37,210 nucleotides of DNA from Deltaproteobacteria bacterium (GTDB lineage Bacteria; Desulfobacterota; GWC2-55-46; UBA9637). Positions 16,991 to 36,613 of the stretch are shown here, one piece after another. The stretch is from the NCBI GenBank assembly GCA_016195725.1, contig JACPZB010000021.1:1-37210 (forward strand), in the 5' to 3' direction. Within the stretch, counting starts at the first letter, position 1. Every line of letters starts with the position of its first letter. Below the pieces are notes generated by a model. It did no database searches. It had not been told where the DNA came from and was given only the letters and a program-made list of their open reading frames with translations. Made by a program: the position numbers and the translations under genes.

Positions 16991-18220
16991 TTAAAATCTC
17001 CTCAAATACTCCAGATACCCCCGATAGTTTCTCTTTATCTCATCGACAGAATCACCGCCAAATTTATCTATAAAGACATTTGCTATCTCAAAGGCAACAA
17101 CAGCCTCGCCAATCACAGATGCGGCAGGCACGGCGCATATATCAGACCGTTCTACGCTTGCCTGAAACTGCTTTTTTGTTTTTATATCCACTGACCTTAA
17201 TGGCTTATAAAGCGTAGGAATAGGTTTCATTGCAGCCCTTAATATAATCGGTTCACCATTGCTCATGCCGCCTTCTATGCCGCCTGCATTATTAGTCTTT
17301 CTGTAAAACCTTGGTTCTATGGGCCAGAATAGATTTTCCTTCTGACTTCTGACTTCTGACTTCTGACTTCTGTAAAAAATCTCATCATGCACCTCGGAAC
17401 CAAAACTTTCAGCTACGCCAAAACCCATTCCAATCTCAACCCCTTTAATTGCCTGAATACTCATAAGCGCCAATGAAAGCCGCGCGTCAAGTTTTCTGTC
17501 CCACTGGACATGGCTTCCAAGGCCTGGGGGAACGCCGGTTACGGCAATTTCAAATATCCCGCCGAGGCTGTCGCCATTTTTTCTTGCCATATCTATCGCC
17601 TTTCTCATCCTTTCTGAAATCTTTTTATCAGGACACCGAACATCAGATGCTTCCGCATTAAAAAAAATATCTTCTAACTTTGAACTTTGAACTTTGAACT
17701 TTGAACTTACTTCTACCCCGCCAATCCCAACTACCCAGCTCATCACCTTAATTCCGAATTCATCTAAAAATCTTTTGCATACAGCGCCAACTGCAACCCT
17801 TGCAGCGGTCTCTCTCGCACTGGAACGTTCAAGGATATTTCGGATATCGTAATGCCCATATTTCAAAGCGCCAGCTAAATCCGCATGGCCTGGTCTTGGT
17901 CTGGTCACTTCTTCCCCCCTTGCCCCCTTCCCCTTGCCCCCTGCCCCTCTATTCATTATTTCTTCCCAATTTTCCCAGTCTTTATTTTTTATGACCATCG
18001 CAATTGGAGAACCCATTGTTTTGCCCAATCTTACACCAGAGGTAATCTCTACCCTGTCTTTTTCAATTACCATCCTGCCGCCGCGACCATAGCCAATCTG
18101 CCTGCGGATAAGTTCTTTATTTATATCCCCTTCAGCCAAATTAAGATTTGCCGGCACCCCTTCTATGATACTAGTAAGAGATTTGCCGTGAGATTCACCT
18201 GCTGTCAAATACCTGAGCAT
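16991..18220 (-). CDS. aroC: Chorismate synthase with three repeat-derived in-frame inserts
   Basis: AroC makes chorismate from EPSP using reduced FMN. The correct start is ATG 18220 (AAAGGAG five bases upstream, [15 protein letters not shown]); the track start lies in a palindromic repeat. Signatures are [34 protein letters not shown], the [13 protein letters not shown] region and [17 protein letters not shown]. At 409 aa it is slightly longer than common forms of 360 to 390 aa. Three low-complexity stretches, [24 protein letters not shown] and [13 protein letters not shown], are encoded by tandem heptads (CCCCTTG-like, TTGAACT, TTCTGAC). They sit between conserved blocks, at places likely to be surface loops. 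The gene heads the aroC-aroK-aroB operon after the pilQ terminator. Confidence 0.97.
17341..17373. repeat. Heptad repeat (TCTGACT) inside aroC
   Basis: Almost five exact TCTGACT units encode the peptide [11 protein letters not shown] on the minus strand, which has a seven-residue period. The minus strand is stop-free in all three frames; the plus strand contains TGA in all three. Confidence 0.92.
17675..17708. repeat. Heptad repeat (TGAACTT) inside aroC
   Basis: Four exact TGAACTT units plus one variant encode [10 protein letters not shown]. The open strand is the coding strand of aroC; the other strand contains TGA. Confidence 0.92.
17914..17950. repeat. C-rich degenerate repeat inside aroC
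   Basis: TTGCCCC and TTCCCC units, mostly 7 bp, encode Gly/Lys-rich GKGKGARG within a variable loop of the protein. Confidence 0.7.
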
Positions 18221-18251
18221 ACGAACTCCTTTGGAAAAATATATTTTTTCT

Positions 18252-18355
18252 GTCATTCCCGAAGCCTTTACCGGGAATCCAGATTTTGATTTTATCCGGC
18301 TCCCTGCCTTAGCAGGGACGAATATGGATTCCCGCTAAAAACATGCGGGAATGAC
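18252..18355. repeat. Dispersed palindromic repeat (GTCATTCCCG...CGGGAATGAC)
   Basis: A 104-bp element with matching ends GTCATTCCCG/CGGGAATGAC and inner arms GGGAATCCAG and ATGGATTCCCG, around a TCCCTGCCTTAGCAGGGA hairpin. Such GTCATTCCCG-type repeats occur in many bacteria. It lies in the 5' region of aroC and explains the false N-terminal extension in the ORF track. Confidence 0.85.
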
Positions 18356-18437: not shown

Positions 18438-21236
18438 TTATAACTCCACTTTACCCTTTACAATATTTGGCGTAATAAATATCAGAAGCTCTGTCTGGGA
18501 ATCAGCTGTTGATTTATTTTTAAATAGCCACCCCAAAAAAGGAATATCCTTAAAAAATGGTATGCCGCTCGATGTATCGCTTTTATCCGCTACTACAATA
18601 CCGCCAATAACTGCGGTTTCTCCGTCTTTTACAATTATCTCTGTTGACGCCTCTTTCTTGCTGATGCTCGGCGTTCCAGCGGCGCTCCTGAAAGAACCGA
18701 TTGAATTTCTGCTTGCCTTTATCTTCATGCTGACGCTGCCGTCAGGGGTTATATGCGGCGTAACAGTCAACTCTAAGGTTGCGTCAATAAACTGCGTCTG
18801 CGTACCTGAAGAAGATGTTGTCTCAAAAGGCACAGAATCACCCTGTGATATCTTTGCCTCTTTATTATCCAGTGTCGTAATCCTCGGCCTTGATATCGTC
18901 TTGGTTAAACCATTTTTCTCGCCGGCTGATATGCGAAGATCCAAAAGAAACGGATCGCCCGTCAAAGTTCCAAATGAAAAACCCATTGCGCCTAATGCCC
19001 CGGCGGTACCTGCTGCAGGAAGGCTTACTGCATAAGTCGGCTGTGCTGAAAATCTCCCGCCTGAACCTATAAAGCCAGTTGGAGTCAATGTCTGCGGTGG
19101 TGAAGTACTGGTGCTGCCAAACGAGCTATTAAATGAGTCTGGGCTCCTTGTAGCTGTAGCCGCCCCCCATTGAACTCCAAGGTCTCTCGCAAAATTACTC
19201 TGAGCCTCTATAATCCTTCCCTCTATCAGCACCTGAGGCGTTTGTGTGTCCAATTTCTTCACCAAATCCACCGCCTTTGCAATATTGGCAGGAATATCTT
19301 TGATAATAAGGGTATTTGTCCTTGCCTCTACTGTAACACTGCCTCTGTCGCTTAACAAACTTTTAACCTGCGGCTCTAATTCGCTTGCCTTTGCATAACT
19401 TACTGAGAATAATTTTATCTCAAGATCCTCCAATTTTTCCTTTGCCTTTCTTGACGCAAGCAGTTCTTCGTTCTCTTGTTTTATCTTTGAGAGCGGCATA
19501 ATTCTAACCACATTGCCTTCCTGCACCTTGCCAAGACCATTTGTCTTTAATATTATATCAAATGCCTGATCCCATGGGACGTCCACTAATCTTAACGACA
19601 CCTTGCCTTTTACATCCTCGCCAGCGATAATGTTTAAATTGCTGATTTCTGCCATTAGTCGCAAGATATTGCTTATATCAGCATCCTTAAAATCTAAGGA
19701 AATCTTACGGCCCGTATAAATTCCCTCTTCCCTTTTTGCAACCTCTCCAGTCGGTTTTATCTCTTGTGCCGACACTTTCTTTGATGCTGAAACCTCTTCA
19801 ACAGGTTTAGTCTCTGCCTCCTTTGGAACTGCCTGTGCTGCTGCAAGAAGTGGAAAATCCATCTCTATCCTTTCCTCTTCCTGGGAGATGTTATAGGCGG
19901 TTTTTTCCTTTAATTTTACAAGAATCCGAGCAGTTTTCGTCAATTCAGCAGGGGCTTGAAAAGAGCTTATACTCGCCACAGGCGTATTCAAGTCAGAGGT
20001 ATCAAGTGTCCTTCTCAGCTCCTCCGCTATAGTGGCATTTTTAATATCTAATACAAGATTGACTTCATCTGCTGATTTTGACAGCTGGTATTCTATTTTT
20101 TTAGATGCAGTAACAACAAGTCTTGCCTTATCGGTAAGTTGTTTAAAGTCAACTGACTTTATTTCCGCATTGTCAGCCCTCTTAGGTTCTGCCGCAGGCA
20201 TCGCAGAAGGTCCTGGAGCATAGGCTTCTCCAGTAGTGGTTGGTGTAATTGAAGTGGTTGGCATAGTTGTAACAGGTGTAGCAACTGTCTCAGGCTTTGC
20301 TGCCGCGACCCTTCCCGTAGTTATAACCAAAGACTCCTCAACTCTTTCGATGGTATAAGGGGGCAATGCTTTTTTGTTAGAATCAAAAACAAGCCTCACT
20401 TTATTTGGATGTTCGCCAATCCTCGCTCTTTTTATTTGAGAACTATTTATATTTAAACTATTTTTGGAAATCGAGCTTTTAACATTCCACACATCTACAA
20501 CCAGCCTTGCCGGCTTATCTATGGCAAAGGCGTTGAAATCACCTATTGCGCCGTTACCAATAATCCTTATTATTGTTCCGCCATCTTCCTTCCTTGCCTC
20601 TATTCGCAATAGCCTATCGGCTTTCTTTGCCTCTTTTTCTTCAACTGCAGCTGGAGGAGATGTTATGGTCTCTTCTACAACTGCCTTTGAAGGTTCCTCT
20701 TGTTTGGCAATCTCTTGTTTTGGAGGTTCGGCCTGAGGCGGTGCTTCAGTCGCGGCAGGCGCTTCTTTTTGAGGGGCAGCTTCATGGTTCAAGCTCACCG
20801 TAATGCTGCCTTCTCCTAACTTTACCTCATAATTAAGCCCCTCTTTTAATCCTATCTCCACCCTGACAATCGGCGTAATTGTTTTCTCTCCATAACTGGC
20901 AACTGTAATAGTGTTTATAAAATTATTATTGACCTCCATCGTTCCTTTCACTTTTTCCATATCTACACTGGGGATATCCAGAACCAGTCGGGTTGGGTCG
21001 GAAAGTTTAAAGGCAGTATAGGTTACTGGTCCGGAGGCCTCTATCAGCACCCCATTGCCATCTTCTATAAGAGAAACCCTTTCAATTGCTACCTTCCTCT
21101 TTGATTCTTCTCTTTTTATCTCTTGTTGGGAAGATGCGCAACCGTAAAAGACAGTAAGCAGGAAGCAGTAAGCGGCAACCAGCAAGAATAACTTTCTGAT
21201 TTTTGACTTATGAGTTATGGCTTCAATATTTCTCAT
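18438..21236 (-). CDS. pilQ: Type IV pilus secretin PilQ, lipoprotein-type
   Basis: PilQ forms the outer-membrane ring through which the pilus passes. The 932-aa protein has a lipoprotein signal (VFYGC, Cys about 33), three AMIN domains that bind peptidoglycan (about residues 50-140, 210-310 and 360-450), a secretin short domain (ISLDFKDADISNILRLMAEI), an N1-type domain with a VEARTNTLIIKDIPANI core, and the C-terminal secretin domain (QVLIEGRIIEA, then PFLGWLFKN, TELLIFITPNIV). Its start overlaps the pilP stop by ATGA, with AGGAGG seven bases before. The signal-peptide core is encoded by a degenerate heptad array (21141..21187). Family length is usually 700 to 900; the Pro/Ala-rich linkers account for the excess. 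Confidence 0.97.
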   Translation of the reverse strand: MRNIEAITHKSKIRKLFLLVAAYCFLLTVFYGCASSQQEIKREESKRKVAIERVSLIEDGNGVLIEASGPVTYTAFKLSDPTRLVLDIPSVDMEKVKGTMEVNNNFINTITVASYGEKTITPIVRVEIGLKEGLNYEVKLGEGSITVSLNHEAAPQKEAPAATEAPPQAEPPKQEIAKQEEPSKAVVEETITSPPAAVEEKEAKKADRLLRIEARKEDGGTIIRIIGNGAIGDFNAFAIDKPARLVVDVWNVKSSISKNSLNINSSQIKRARIGEHPNKVRLVFDSNKKALPPYTIERVEESLVITTGRVAAAKPETVATPVTTMPTTSITPTTTGEAYAPGPSAMPAAEPKRADNAEIKSVDFKQLTDKARLVVTASKKIEYQLSKSADEVNLVLDIKNATIAEELRRTLDTSDLNTPVASISSFQAPAELTKTARILVKLKEKTAYNISQEEERIEMDFPLLAAAQAVPKEAETKPVEEVSASKKVSAQEIKPTGEVAKREEGIYTGRKISLDFKDADISNILRLMAEISNLNIIAGEDVKGKVSLRLVDVPWDQAFDIILKTNGLGKVQEGNVVRIMPLSKIKQENEELLASRKAKEKLEDLEIKLFSVSYAKASELEPQVKSLLSDRGSVTVEARTNTLIIKDIPANIAKAVDLVKKLDTQTPQVLIEGRIIEAQSNFARDLGVQWGAATATRSPDSFNSSFGSTSTSPPQTLTPTGFIGSGGRFSAQPTYAVSLPAAGTAGALGAMGFSFGTLTGDPFLLDLRISAGEKNGLTKTISRPRITTLDNKEAKISQGDSVPFETTSSSGTQTQFIDATLELTVTPHITPDGSVSMKIKASRNSIGSFRSAAGTPSISKKEASTEIIVKDGETAVIGGIVVADKSDTSSGIPFFKDIPFLGWLFKNKSTADSQTELLIFITPNIVKGKVEL
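21141..21187. repeat. Heptad array encoding the PilQ signal-peptide core
   Basis: Units GTAAGCA, GGAAGCA, GTAAGCG, GCAACCA. Read on the minus strand they give LLVAAYCFLLTVFYGC, the hydrophobic core and lipobox. Confidence 0.8.
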
Positions 21237-21838
21237 TGTAATTCCTCCTCTCCTTTCGACAGCGGCAGTTTTATTTCAAACTCATTTGTCTTAATTTCGC
21301 CGCCAGGCTCTGCAAATTTCTCCTCTATCACTATCTTATCTTTCTCAATCCGCTTTACCCTTCCATCTTTATTCCCGATAAGATTGCCTTTTTTTATTCT
21401 ATATCCTTTGCCGTCCGGCGCTTCTACCATTGCCATGGGATTATCCACTCCCCAAATGATTGCCACGAGTTTGAGCTGCTCCACGTCATATTTTTGCAGC
21501 GGTGTCTTCGGCACAATCACTGTCACTCTCTCTGTTGCTTTCGTGATAAATGGTTTGAATGGGTTTCTTTGCTTTACTTCAACAGCCGTTTCTTCTTTTT
21601 TTTCTTCCTTTTTCGTTTCTACCACGGGAGACGCAACCTCTGGTTTGGGCGGTTCTTTTTTCACCTGAGATACAGGAGCTTGCGGTTGAGGTTGAGATGG
21701 CGTGCTACCTTGCTGGCAACCTGTTAAAACAGTAAACAGTGACCAGTGAACAGTAACCAGTAAAAACAAAACCAACCTTATTAGACCTTTTCTGATAACT
21801 GATAACTGATAACTGATAACTGATAACTGTTTTTTCAT
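21233..21838 (-). CDS. pilP: Type IV pilus assembly lipoprotein PilP
   Basis: PilP connects the inner-membrane PilN/PilO complex to PilQ. The 201-aa protein has a lipobox LTGC (Cys about 41), a Pro/Lys/Glu-rich disordered linker, and a folded C-terminal domain with RNPFKPF and VEQLKLVAIIWGVDNPMAMV, typical of PilP. The N-terminal 40 residues are peculiar: QLSVISYQLSVI comes from a perfect CTGATAA array and LLVTVHWSLFTVL from a degenerate GTAAACA array, so most of the signal peptide is repeat-derived. It starts right after the pilO stop and overlaps pilQ by four bases. Confidence 0.95.
   Translation of the reverse strand: MKKQLSVISYQLSVIRKGLIRLVLFLLVTVHWSLFTVLTGCQQGSTPSQPQPQAPVSQVKKEPPKPEVASPVVETKKEEKKEETAVEVKQRNPFKPFITKATERVTVIVPKTPLQKYDVEQLKLVAIIWGVDNPMAMVEAPDGKGYRIKKGNLIGNKDGRVKRIEKDKIVIEEKFAEPGGEIKTNEFEIKLPLSKGEEELQ
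21723..21767. repeat. Heptad array encoding the PilP hydrophobic core
   Basis: Units GTAAACA, GTGACCA, GTGAACA, GTAACCA. The minus strand is open in the frame used and encodes VTVHWSLFTVL before the lipobox. Confidence 0.88.
21792..21826. repeat. Perfect CTGATAA x5 array at the start of pilP
   Basis: Five exact units lie just after the pilP start codon and encode QLSVISYQLSVI. The coding strand is stop-free in all frames; the opposite strand has TGA and TAA. Confidence 0.95.
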
Positions 21839-21839
21839 T

Positions 21840-22454
21840 CTATTTTTTCGCCCCCGGCTGCGGCGCCTCTGCCTGAGGCAGAAACTTAAATGTTGTTGCT
21901 ACAAATGTGGCTGACAACATAATTTCACCCCTCACCTCTTTAGGGCTGCTTGCAATATTCAGCACATTTATATTAACTATCCTCGGCAGCCCCGCAACCT
22001 TTTCAAAGAAAAGCATTAGATTGTTATAGCCTCCCTCAACCTTCATATCTATGGTTACTTCGGCATAAAAACCCTTTGGAGTTTCCTTGCCTGGCTTGAA
22101 TGACATTATATCTAATCGTGAACCCTTTGCGGCATCAGATATGCTTTCAAGCAAGTTCGCAATCTCCTTTTCATTCGGAAGCCGAGCAAGAGCCTGCTTT
22201 AGCTGATTATCCAGCTCCTCCTTCTCCTTTTTAAATTTCGGCAGATCGCCGGCCAATATCTTCTTTTTAGCTGAATCATTTTTAAGCCTTTCCAGTTTAC
22301 TGCTTAAAGTACTGCCCTCAGCCAATTTTGCGCTATACAAAAACCAATAAAAACTGCCTATTAAAACAAGCCAGACAACCCCCAATATTAAGAACCTTTG
22401 CCAGAGGGGCAATTTAAGTATTATATTTACATCAATCTTTGGTAACGGGCTCAT
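21840..22454 (-). CDS. pilO: Type IV pilus inner-membrane protein PilO
   Basis: PilO, with PilN, forms the inner-membrane alignment complex. It is 204 aa from ATG 22454; the ORF track start (22508) wrongly extends into pilN. It has one membrane helix near residues 20-40 (FLILGVVWLVLIGSFYWFLY), a periplasmic coiled coil (about 45-95: LERLKNDSAKKKILAGDL) and a ferredoxin-like C-terminal domain (VTIDMKVEGGYNNLMLFFEK). It begins two bases after the pilN stop and is directly followed by pilP. Confidence 0.95.
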   Translation of the reverse strand: MSPLPKIDVNIILKLPLWQRFLILGVVWLVLIGSFYWFLYSAKLAEGSTLSSKLERLKNDSAKKKILAGDLPKFKKEKEELDNQLKQALARLPNEKEIANLLESISDAAKGSRLDIMSFKPGKETPKGFYAEVTIDMKVEGGYNNLMLFFEKVAGLPRIVNINVLNIASSPKEVRGEIMLSATFVATTFKFLPQAEAPQPGAKK

Positions 22455-26282: not shown

Positions 26283-26329
26283 AGAAGATAGGGAAATTAA
26301 GTAACATAAAAAAAGGGGGAAAGGAAGGG

Positions 26330-26465
26330 GAAAAAAACGGTAGAGAGTAGAAGGTAGAGAGTAGGCAGGGGGAAAATACGGTAGATAGTAGAGAGTAGAA
26401 AGTAGACAGGGGAAAACAAAAGATTTTCTTTCTACCTTCTACCGTCTACCTTCTACCTTCTACTA
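26330..26465. repeat. Large head-to-head heptad array (AGTAGAC family) after pilY1
   Basis: Many GGTAGAG, AGTAGAA, AGTAGAC units run one way, then after an AAAACAAAAG centre opposed TTCTACC, GTCTACC units run the other way. The pilY1 stop TAG is the first triplet of the array. The opposed halves can form a long hairpin; on the minus strand a run of T follows, so it may also act as a transcription attenuator between pilY1 and the next gene. Confidence 0.88.
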
Positions 26466-31756: not shown

Positions 31757-32410
31757 TCATCCTGTAAACCTGTAAAGCGCGGAGTTTTCCGCTGTTGCAT
31801 TATTAGGGCCTTGCACAGACACGGTGATCCTGTAAAATATAGCGGTAGAGGGCGCGCCGCCGGCAGTCCTTGCAAATTCAAGCCTGCCGCCCGGCAGCGA
31901 CACGGTGTACAACCTCAAGAGCGTTACCGTTGCCCGATAATCGCCGCTGATGCCGGTGAGGGTAATAGTAGTCTGACATGCGCTGCCTTGATTCAGAATG
32001 GCAAAAGAAAGATTGTATGTCTGGCCAGTGCAAGTTGCCGTAATCATAGTGGTAACCGTCTCCCCCCACATGGTCTTATTTATGGAATCCTTTACCACAT
32101 TTATGGCCCCGTCCGCCGCCTCTGACGCAGTTGCATACCTCTTGCCGGCCCCGGACATGATTGTGGACTGGGTTATGAAATACAAAATCCCTGCTACCAG
32201 AGCCATGATAGCAACACTCATAAGCAGAGCCACTACAAGGGCAATGCCTTTGTTATTGGTAGACGGTAGATGGTAGATGGTAGACTTTTTAAAAGTAGAC
32301 GGTAGACAGTAGATAGCAGATAGGAAAGACATGGATTTTGTTTTCCCCTGTCTACTTTCTACTCTCCTACTGTCTACTGTATTTTTGCTGTATGCTCTTA
32401 ATAAGTCCAT
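31757..32410 (-). CDS. pilX: PilX-like minor prepilin with unusually long repeat-encoded leader
   Basis: Mature protein begins GIALVVALLMSVAIMALVAG, the PilX-type hydrophobic segment, followed by a pilin-like domain with SGAGKRYATASEAADGAINV and two Cys. The best start is ATG 32410 (GGAGG seven bases upstream), which lies inside the 3' end of the four-helix-bundle gene. The leader before Gly is then about 54 residues and includes FLSAIYCLPSTF and YHLPSTNNK, encoded by AGTAGAC-family heptads. An internal ATG (MSFLSAIYC) would give about 28 residues but has a poor ribosome site. Normal prepilin leaders are 5 to 25 residues. It is part of the minor-pilin operon before pilY1. Confidence 0.82.
   Translation of the reverse strand: MDLLRAYSKNTVDSRRVESRQGKTKSMSFLSAIYCLPSTFKKSTIYHLPSTNNKGIALVVALLMSVAIMALVAGILYFITQSTIMSGAGKRYATASEAADGAINVVKDSINKTMWGETVTTMITATCTGQTYNLSFAILNQGSACQTTITLTGISGDYRATVTLLRLYTVSLPGGRLEFARTAGGAPSTAIFYRITVSVQGPNNATAENSALYRFTG
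32258..32396. repeat. AGTAGAC-family heptad arrays within the pilX leader and the end of the four-helix gene
   Basis: GGTAGAC, GGTAGAT, AGTAGAC units (32258..32318), then opposed TGTCTAC, TTTCTAC units (32349..32385). They encode most of the PilX leader; at the far end they give the TAG stop of the four-helix-bundle gene. Confidence 0.85.
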
Positions 32411-32741
32411 ATAACATCCTCCCTGTCTGATCACATTGACTGTTTAAGATTTTGTTATCTTTCAAATATCCAAGGTCTGCAGATAAAATTACATAATATC
32501 TCAATTCTTCTAATGACCCTTGGCTCATATTATAAAAATTTGCTTTGTCCTTCAACGTGCGCTTTCTGAAACCTTCGGCAATATTTGCAGCAATTGATAC
32601 GGCAGCCCGACGCATTTGAGAAACAAGGCTGAATTTTTCTTCATTTGGAAAATATCTTGTAACTTTATATGCCTCCAACACAAGCTCATGCGCCTTTTTC
32701 CATACTTCCAAATCTTCAAATCTCTGCGCTTTTATTTTCAT
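32367..32741 (-). CDS. Four-helix-bundle protein (S23/IVP, Avd-like family)
   Basis: About 124 aa with the family signature: FEDLEVWKKAHELVLEAYK, FPNEEKFSLVSQMRRAAVS, IAANIAEGFRKRT, and NMSQGSLEELRYYVILSADL. This is the small basic helical family found within 23S rRNA intervening sequences and, as Avd, in diversity-generating retroelements; many copies stand alone and have no known role. ATG 32741 has AAGG five bases upstream; the track start GTG 32747 overlaps that site. It lies between pilW and pilX, in an operon that elsewhere is pure pilin genes, and is flanked by heptad arrays on both sides, suggesting later insertion. Confidence 0.9.
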   Translation of the reverse strand: MKIKAQRFEDLEVWKKAHELVLEAYKVTRYFPNEEKFSLVSQMRRAAVSIAANIAEGFRKRTLKDKANFYNMSQGSLEELRYYVILSADLGYLKDNKILNSQCDQTGRMLYGLIKSIQQKYSRQ

Positions 32742-33975: not shown

Positions 33976-34569
33976 TCACACTGCCTTGTGCTTGTGGATT
34001 ACTGCGCTATTCGTATAAGACTGCGTCTGCCCGGGATAGCTGTATAAAACAGTGATTGAAATCTCTTTTAAATCAGTTGTCAAGTCAGTCACCGACCATG
34101 TAACCGTATAAGACTGGGTAGTCCCCCTCATGGTTTGAACAGGATTTGGATAGTACAGATAATAATTGGCAGTTGAGCCTGTAGGATCTTGTAAGGCAGC
34201 GTTTGTAGTACCGTAAGGTGTTAAATTACAGGGGGTTGTAGTGGTACAAGTTGTAGAAAGCGAAGGGCTATTCATCGGCTGGGCAAGGAGTATCTCCGCT
34301 GTCTGAGTAGTAAGCCGTATGGCAGTATTCCTTATATCGTTCTGCAAATTAACCCGTATGGATGTAATAACAATGTTTAAAAGCCCAAGCATAGAAATGG
34401 CCAGGATGGCAAGGGCTATCATCATCTCTATGAGGGAAAACCCCTTTTTATTAGCAGGTAGTAGACAGTAGACAGCATGCAAAGGAAAACCTTTCTCTCC
34501 CCGTCTACTGTCTACTCCATGCTGTCTACTTTCTTTATGCCGGCTACTGTGATTGACAATTGTTTCCAT
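33976..34569 (-). CDS. pilV: PilV-like minor prepilin with 42-residue repeat-encoded leader
   Basis: Mature part begins FSLIEMMIALAILAISMLGL with Glu at position 5, then NIVITSIRVNLQNDIRNTA, typical of PilV. The start ATG 34569 is well supported (AGGAG six bases upstream, overlapping the gspH/fimT end by 26 bases), so the leader before the cleavage Gly is about 42 residues, far longer than normal. Much of it (VDSRRGEKGF, LHAVYCLLPANKK) is encoded by AGTAGAC-family heptads that form a 12-bp perfect inverted repeat (34468..34479 with 34518..34529). Confidence 0.88.
   Translation of the reverse strand: METIVNHSSRHKESRQHGVDSRRGEKGFPLHAVYCLLPANKKGFSLIEMMIALAILAISMLGLLNIVITSIRVNLQNDIRNTAIRLTTQTAEILLAQPMNSPSLSTTCTTTTPCNLTPYGTTNAALQDPTGSTANYYLYYPNPVQTMRGTTQSYTVTWSVTDLTTDLKEISITVLYSYPGQTQSYTNSAVIHKHKAV
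34453..34540. repeat. Heptad inverted array encoding the PilV leader
   Basis: GTAGACAGCATG pairs exactly with CATGCTGTCTAC; outer GTAGACAGTAGAC and GTCTACTGTCTAC also pair. The whole array is inside the open frame. Confidence 0.88.
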
Positions 34570-35230: not shown

Positions 35231-36613
35231 TTACAAACCATATTCCTTTATCTTATACAAAAGCGCCCTGTGGCTTATCTCTAATAGTTCCGCCGCCTTT
35301 GTCTTGTTGCCGTTTGTCATCTCAAGGGCTTTTTTTATGAACTCTTTTTCAAGCTCTTCTTCCGCCCTTTTGATTGAGAGTTCCGCCCCTTGACCCTTGA
35401 CCCTTGACCCTTGACCCGTTTCTTTTAAAAACGGCAGGCTGTCGGCTTTGATTACATCACCCTCGGCCAGTATCACCGCCCTTTCAATCACATTCTCCAG
35501 TTCCCGCACATTCCCGGGCCATGAGTAATTGCTCAAATGATTCATGGTCTCTTCGTCAACGGTCTTTATCTTTTTACCAAACTTTTTTGCATAACGGCTT
35601 ATAAAATGGTTTATAAGGAACGGAATATCACCATGCCTCTCCCGCAAGGGAGGAAGCTTTATCGGTACGACATTGAGCCTGTAAAAAAGGTCTTCCCTGA
35701 AATTGCCTTTTCTAATCTCTTCTGTCAGGTCTTTGGCAGTCGCCGCGATCACCCTTACATCAATCTTTTTAGATTTTGAATCCCCCAGCCGTCGCAGCTC
35801 TCCTTCCTGAAGAACCCTCAACAGCTTTACCTGCAATTCCTTTGGAAGCTCGCCTATTTCATCTAAAAACATAGTCCCTGCATCTGCTTCTTCAAAAAGG
35901 CCCGGCTTATTTCTTACAGCGTCAGTAAATGCGCCTTTGACATGACCGAAGAGCTCGCTCTCCAGAAGATTTTCAGGGATTGCGCCGCAATTTACTGCAA
36001 TAAACGGCCTATCCCTTCTAATACCATTATAATGGAGCGCCCTGGCTATAAGTTCCTTTCCAGTGCCGCTCTCACCGGTTATAAGTATGGTTGTATTATA
36101 ATCCGCCACCTTCTTTATAAGTTTAAATATTTCAAGCAGTTGCTGGTTTTCTGTTATAATATTCTTAAGGTCATATTCTTGCTCGGCAATATGTTTAAAT
36201 CTCGCATTTTCCCGTTTAAGACTTTCCCTCTCTTCCGCCTTCTTTAACGTAAGGATTATCTCATCGGCCTTGAACGGCTTTGATATGTAATCATATGCGC
36301 CAAGCCTCATACATTCAATTGCAGTGTCAATTGTGCCGTAGGCGGACATCATGATGACAACCCCCCCACCCCTGCCCTCCCCCTCAAGGGGGGAGGGTGA
36401 GGGAGGGGGTGACTTGAGTCTCTTGAGAAATTCCATCCCGTCCATGCCCGGCATTTTTATATCGCAGAGGATGAAGTCAAAATCATCCTTTTCCAATACC
36501 TTCAATGCCTGAGCGCCGCCTTCCACAGACGCCGCATCGTAGCCTTCCTTTTTTAAAATTATGGAAAGCATGTGGCGCATGGATTCTTCGTCGTCAATGA
36601 TTAGAATTCTCAT
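35231..36613 (-). CDS. pilR: Sigma-54-dependent response regulator, PilR/NtrC type
   Basis: A 460-aa activator. The receiver domain has Asp 7/8, the phospho-acceptor in ILCDIKMPGMDG (about 51), and MMSAYG and SKPF. The AAA+ domain has GESGTGKE (Walker A), GAFTDA (in place of the usual sigma-54 contact loop GAFTGA) and GTMFLDEIGELP (Walker B). The C-terminal Fis-type HTH is NKTKAAELLEISHRALLYKI. Two repeat-derived inserts occur: SPPPSPSPLEGEGRGGG in the receiver between helix 3 and strand 4, and GQGSRVKGQG (CCCTTGA heptads) between the AAA+ and HTH domains. It follows its kinase and most likely drives the two sigma-54 promoters in this window. Confidence 0.93.
   Translation of the reverse strand: MRILIIDDEESMRHMLSIILKKEGYDAASVEGGAQALKVLEKDDFDFILCDIKMPGMDGMEFLKRLKSPPPSPSPLEGEGRGGGVVIMMSAYGTIDTAIECMRLGAYDYISKPFKADEIILTLKKAEERESLKRENARFKHIAEQEYDLKNIITENQQLLEIFKLIKKVADYNTTILITGESGTGKELIARALHYNGIRRDRPFIAVNCGAIPENLLESELFGHVKGAFTDAVRNKPGLFEEADAGTMFLDEIGELPKELQVKLLRVLQEGELRRLGDSKSKKIDVRVIAATAKDLTEEIRKGNFREDLFYRLNVVPIKLPPLRERHGDIPFLINHFISRYAKKFGKKIKTVDEETMNHLSNYSWPGNVRELENVIERAVILAEGDVIKADSLPFLKETGQGSRVKGQGAELSIKRAEEELEKEFIKKALEMTNGNKTKAAELLEISHRALLYKIKEYGL
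35387..35418. repeat. Heptad repeat (TGACCCT) inside the response regulator gene
   Basis: About four exact units encode QGSRVKGQGAE in the linker before the DNA-binding domain. Confidence 0.9.
36358..36411. repeat. C-rich palindrome inside the receiver domain
   Basis: CCCTCCCCCTCAAGGGGGGA is flanked by further C-rich and G-rich arms, an inverted repeat that encodes SPPPSPSPLEGEGRGGG in frame. It resembles dispersed hairpin repeats common in environmental genomes. Confidence 0.85.

Follow-up and report, generated by a model that had tools for sequence, protein, structure and literature searches.

The window analysed here, 37,210 nt in all, comes from the uncultured bacterium whose genome serves as our home genome (G000); its family is called the family below, and all positions are those of the window. 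The genes pilM, pilN, pilO, pilP and pilQ lie consecutively on the minus strand, in the order pilMNOPQ (Table 1). The start codon of pilP follows the pilO stop at a distance of 0-5 nt in six of the seven family genomes. As the first-pass annotation of this DNA had proposed, the body of the protein is that of a standard PilP, matching PF04351 with 49.6 bits (gathering score 25.6; 5e-13).

The translation of the pilP reading frame (21838-21233, minus strand) opens MKKQLSVISYQLSVIRKGLIRLVLFLLVTVHWSLFTVLTGCQQ, and its codons 1-41 read MKKQLSVISYQLSVIRKGLIRLVLFLLVTVHWSLFTVLTGC. Two arrays of 7-nt units occupy this stretch, both of which had been noticed in the first-pass annotation and are recovered by TRF. 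Just after the start, a perfect CTGATAA array, read as (TCAGTTA)n = QLSVISYQLSVI, supplies residues 4-16 of the n-region. A degenerate GTAAACA-type array, with the TRF consensus AAACAGT/CAGTAAACAGTAAC, is read as LLVTVHWSLFTVL; it supplies residues 26-38, forms the hydrophobic core, and runs up to the LTGC lipobox, whose Cys is invariant. After the ATG, in-frame start codons are limited to TTG at codons 21 and 23, which precede the hydrophobic array. A true start downstream of that array is thus ruled out, since start codons are absent between it and the lipobox. We infer that PilP would be exported and processed through this array-built signal.

Table 1. Positions of the pilP locus features and of other heptad-built leaders in the window.
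Feature	Positions	Strand	Description
pilO	21840..22454	-	PF04350; upstream neighbour of pilP
pilP CDS	21233..21838	-	201 aa lipoprotein; residues 70-187 match Pfam PilP (PF04351)
pilP ATG	21836..21838	-	one base past pilO stop (21840-21842)
pilP n-region array	21792..21829	-	CTGATAA x5.4, 100% identity (TRF)
pilP h-region array	21727..21764	-	degenerate AAACAGT/GTAAACA heptads (TRF)
pilP imperfect inverted repeat (hairpin)	21727..21832	.	arms 21727-21770 and 21789-21832, the two arrays
PilP lipobox L-T-G-C	21716..21727	-	read from sequence; predicted lipidated Cys at codon 41, 21716-21718
pilQ secretin	18438..21236	-	lipoprotein signal MRNIEAITHKSKIRKLFLLVAAYCFLLTVFYGC overlaps heptad array 21152-21173
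PilX-like pilin leader	32257..32380	-	GTAGACA-family inverted heptad arrays; mature part starts NKGIALVV...
PilV-like pilin leader	34455..34512	-	AGTAGAC / GTCTACT inverted pair, then N_methyl motif

The two pilP arrays face each other as the arms of an inverted repeat, and the transcript is predicted to fold as a long stem (RNA fold z = -3.85); a search of Rfam at the hairpin site returned no known RNA family. Complementarity between the arms is not perfect. The perfect complement of the TCAGTTA arm is TAACTGA, a heptamer with stop codons in every frame (PMC4679880), and the h-region arm departs from it. This mutual pairing had been missed by the first-pass annotation, as had the abundance of such arrays across the genome and the similar construction of the PilQ and pilin leaders.

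Several further repeats lie in the window. The pilin leaders (33976-34569 and 31757-32434) are long and heptad-built up to the prepilin peptidase site, although that of the PilV-like pilin may be shorter if a TTG start is used. The AroC gene (16991-18256) carries heptad inserts at 17336-17374 and 17671-17710, and a degenerate one at 17911-17947; in L068 and L069, which belong to the next family, AroC has different heptad inserts at this last site. At the end of the pilY1 reading frame (26322-26463) there is a purine-first inverted heptad hairpin, in a possibly terminator-like position. A response regulator (35231-36613) contains an in-frame insert, SPPPSPSPLEGEGRGGG, of another repeat type, together with a C-terminal CCCTTGA array.

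To compare PilP signals among relatives, mostly MAGs with one genome per species, we scored lag-7 identity out of 28 within the 150 nt that end at the lipobox Cys. All seven family genomes read have heptad-built signals (20-28/28), whereas the 21 PilP relatives outside the family score at most 15/28, none of them being heptad-built, and have short, ordinary signals (Fisher p = 8e-7). Among these homologues, no relative lacking the repeats carries the same peptide. The heptads themselves vary between species: CAGTTAT and TGTTTAC in G000; CAGTTAT and GCAATGAG in G007; TCAGAAG/GGCTATG/CTTGCCT in G001; CAGTCAC/GACCTTG in G003; GCAAGAA/TTCTTGC in both G004 and G006; and AGTAGAC/CTGTCTA in G005. Grouping G000 with G007 and G004 with G006 gives five heptad states in seven species, which implies four replacements or more on any tree. 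Because an ordinary lipoprotein signal is present in all PilP homologues read outside the family, export is the ancestral function. The first-pass annotation had suggested that a functional export signal arose here from noncoding repeat DNA. That the signal peptide is written in the arrays stands; as for its origin, the array DNA is best read as having replaced an existing PilP signal, not as having created export where none existed.

The same construction recurs in other exported proteins, so that a PilP-specific oddity is ruled out: PilQ, LolA, TolC-like, BamD, LptA-type and other proteins are affected. Heptad-built signals were found in PilQ (7/7 family genomes read), in the TolC-like OEP (8/8, with scores of 19-28 and bodies 70-85% identical) and in LolA (7/7, with bodies 83-89% identical). 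OEP and LolA were selected since G000 already had arrays there, and their 100% is therefore conditional, whereas the sequence differences among their orthologues are not. Two exported families were picked beforehand. BamD, retrieved by a PF13525 (YfiO) search in which many internal, non-N-terminal TPR matches were ignored, has heptad-built signals in three of four cases. Skp has none in eight; it keeps a conserved ordinary signal, with arrays upstream of it. Skp thus rules out a universal rule for all signal peptides, and the takeover is partial. Beyond the family, array-built signals occur in the next family, in the OEP of G009 and G010 and the PilQ of G008 (= GWC2_42_11) and G010, and the PilQ signal of a Nitrospinota MAG (L070) is also heptad-built.

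While the mature proteins and flanking sequences are conserved, the heptads usually differ among species, even between sisters. The species tree joins G004 with G006 (100%), G005 with G007 (100%) and G000 with G001 (95%), its deeper nodes being weak. In the sister species G004 and G006, the LolA signals consist of different heptads throughout, between closely matching flanks. Simple inheritance of one repeat is ruled out by such differences.

Arrays with this period are abundant across these genomes. Counts come from samples of three genomes in the family (457 kb of G000, and 277 and 290 kb of the other two), a strict array being defined as 18 of 21 positions identical at lag 7. Strict lag-7 arrays number 105-116 per Mb in the three genomes (105 in the 457-kb sample) and zero in a class-level control genome (G027). 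At lags 4-13 other than 7, the 457-kb sample holds 0-13 strict arrays per Mb, so that the lag-7 density greatly exceeds chance; overall, counts at other lags are near zero, with exceptions at the harmonic 14, to some extent at lag 8, and in one genome that shows a low background. A looser detector gave lag-7 counts of 95, 46 and 59 in the family genomes versus 1 in the control. Many heptamer families coexist, including GTAGACA, GTAAACA, CTGATAA, CTTCTGA, AACTTTG and CCCTTGA. In the G000 sample, about 33% of the arrays fall between genes and the remainder within open frames or gene bodies, classes that depend on a first-pass gene caller whose choice of starts by codon usage leaves heptad N-termini outside genes. 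Period-8 arrays, of which G000 has about 13 per Mb, are perhaps a second repeat class, and in the OEP N-termini of G001 and G002 (L161, L162) period-8 scores are as high as those for period 7 (20-21/28). A degenerate GTARACA x3 pattern occurs in seven of 395 genomes of the phylum, in scattered families; it is too narrow for mapping the trait and indicates only that such arrays are present elsewhere. An assembly artefact is an unlikely source, since the arrays are mostly shorter than 50 bp and recur across independent assemblies from different projects.

Arrays at gene starts favour exported proteins. They occur at 8 of 35 putative lipoproteins versus 26 of 932 other gene starts (p = 1e-5); in the control genome they occur at neither (0/12 and 0/327). 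N-terminal arrays are likewise absent from cytosolic PurA (0/7) and RpsB (0/7). Array bearers named by Pfam include LolA, SBP_bac_11, OEP, LptD_N (LptA-type), CcmH, SpoIID, ChapFlgA (FlgA-type), Peripla_BP_6, an AhpC/TSA lipoprotein and GNA1162. By the sequence features used to judge them (charge and hydropathy), array-built signals have a net charge of +2 to +10 and a core hydropathy of 2.1-3.1, compared with 2.3-3.7 for ordinary signals; this lower hydrophobicity may reduce export efficiency. Arrays also lengthen the N-termini of some non-exported proteins (Gmk, UbiA), and tolerance alone thus explains part of the pattern. The guanylate kinase (L056:4470-5180) has, from its putative start, a charged-then-hydrophobic heptad N-terminus that looks like a signal peptide, although the enzyme is cytosolic. 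In-frame inverted heptad pairs also lie inside the cytosolic enzymes TsaD (L092:1482-1569), a CbiX-CbiC fusion (L059:4576-4689) and Ppx/GppA (L057:6820-6897).

Pairing between neighbouring arrays is a general tendency. In the three family genomes, the inverted match of an array to its own flank exceeds the 95th percentile set by the flanks of other arrays in 45, 24 and 19% of cases, versus 12, 9 and 3% in direct orientation. Some pairs are poor, as in the PilP of G005 and the OEP of G000. In-frame N-terminal hairpins are purine-first by 14:0, compared with 11:8 for intergenic ones (p = 0.01), in a test of 33 hairpins that is partly shaped by stop-codon avoidance. Such a bias at gene starts is as expected if selection passes only purine-first hairpins.

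We propose, at a probability of roughly 0.8, that the pilP signal would exemplify a lineage-wide process whereby heptad arrays overwrite the stretch from start codon to signal peptidase site. The arrays, often inverted pairs that form imperfect hairpins, would repeatedly overwrite signal peptides, and they probably originate by polymerase slippage and template switching across the hairpin. A stop-free heptad array encodes one and the same heptapeptide whichever frame is read, 7 and 3 being coprime. A purine-rich arm would encode K/R/Q/S/E, suited to an n-region, and its pyrimidine-rich complement L/F/V/C/A/S, suited to an h-region. With the charged purine arm first and its hydrophobic complement second, a hairpin would read as a charged-then-hydrophobic signal peptide. 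Signal peptides are degenerate, many random sequences being functional (Kaiser 1987, as cited in PMC4585086), and Sec and lipoprotein signals would tolerate almost any sequence of this kind. Given such tolerance, a new array could take over, the old signal be lost, and selection keep export.

Three other readings are each improbable. The arrays might be tolerated debris, random insertions that survive wherever junk is tolerated, as in cleaved leaders, loops and the ends of genes, with the real signal or start elsewhere. Arrays do lie in loops of cytosolic AroC, TsaD, CbiX-CbiC and Ppx/GppA, at the N-termini of Gmk, HisG and UbiA, and upstream of the intact ordinary signal of Skp. In PilP, PilQ, OEP and LolA, however, the array is the only h-region, with no other hydrophobic segment, and it reaches the lipobox or Ala-X-Ala site; in pilP, moreover, there is no alternative start from the h-region array to the lipobox. 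We consider debris an unlikely account of these signals.

The hairpin could instead be a conserved RNA or DNA element, for example in translation control, with the peptide as a by-product. This would fit the excess of inverted pairing over controls, the fold score of pilP and the translational control suggested for intergenic TAACTGA repeats in Beggiatoaceae (MacGregor 2015, PMC4679880). It is equally doubtful, because a convincing inverted partner is lacking in two of the PilP members, in several OEPs and for most arrays across the genomes, because a general RNA element does not predict a preference for exported genes, and because no recoding was seen that preserves the hairpin but not the peptide.

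No better placed is a phase-variation switch, in which gain or loss of 7-nt units after the ATG would shift the frame and turn PilP and pili off. Heptanucleotide phase variation has a precedent in Haemophilus HMW1A (PMC8262952), and in silico only changes of 3n units keep pilP open, one or two units giving peptides of 16-46 aa. Only some arrays are perfect, however, and the degenerate h-regions of LolA and OEP would slip little; arrays also lie in such housekeeping genes as lolA and bamD, whose switching off should kill the cell.

Overwriting of signal peptides by heptad arrays has partial parallels in known systems. Direct TAACTGA repeats, for which translational control was proposed, are known from Beggiatoaceae, cyanobacteria and Bacteroidetes (MacGregor 2015, PMC4679880); most are intergenic, and they occur several nucleotides or less from a start codon and in some cases within an ORF (PMC4679880). 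The CTGATAA of pilP is a rotation of this heptamer, with the reverse-strand reading LSVISYQ, and tandem TAACTGA units occur in pilP (x5.4); beyond G000 they are present in four more genomes of the family as well as in G034. The systems differ in that BOGUAY repeats only TAACTGA, related heptamers being rare, while many heptamer families are present here; in that those repeats are mostly intergenic and just upstream of starts, compared with about a third intergenic in our G000 sample; and in that the arrays described here are often inverted pairs that form signal peptides of conserved envelope proteins.

Repeated palindromic DNA fused in frame has been described as contributing a predicted signal peptide in Yersinia, where the element YAPL/RU-2 does so in YPO1552 (Delihas 2007; PMC2229807). 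As described there, that case concerns a single putative exported protein and a mobile element of fixed form, 168 bp long, whereas here changing short tandem arrays affect orthologous conserved proteins in many species. Nor do the arrays look like MITEs or other fixed mobile elements, which have homologous copies with terminal inverted repeats: between loci and species, the arms share a 7-nt period and complementarity, not sequence. Rickettsia palindromic elements likewise place palindromic repeat DNA in frame within conserved genes (Ogata 2000, PMC2229807); they are described as homologous 105-146-bp elements, while only the 7-nt period and hairpin form are common here. PARCEL palindromic amphipathic repeats (PMC2996958) and Borg tandem repeats (PMC9879509) are further examples of palindromic or tandem DNA diversifying protein sequence. 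Signal peptides are enriched among Borg repeat-proteins (PMC9879509) and PARCEL concerns repeat protein domains of surface proteins (PMC2996958), but neither kind of repeat is described as being itself the signal peptide. The TAACTGA heptamer and one repeat-derived signal peptide (the Yersinia MITE) are thus already known; pervasive replacement of signal peptides by heptad arrays appears to be new, and a search of the open-access literature yielded no account of signal peptides made of heptad arrays.

The emergence of new signal peptides in nature is rarely observed; here their source in the DNA can be seen. Replacement between sister species with intact flanks, in several orthologous sets, makes the question of how repeat DNA becomes a protein segment directly testable, and the logic of complementary arms offers a concrete, testable reason for hairpins to favour signal peptides. 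At heptad-built N-termini, homology searches and start-codon calls fail. At what we judge to be even odds, the heptad-hairpin process could be a standing source of export signals in this groundwater 'Deltaproteobacteria' lineage and in at least one Nitrospinota, under which the signals of core envelope proteins would be continually replaced.
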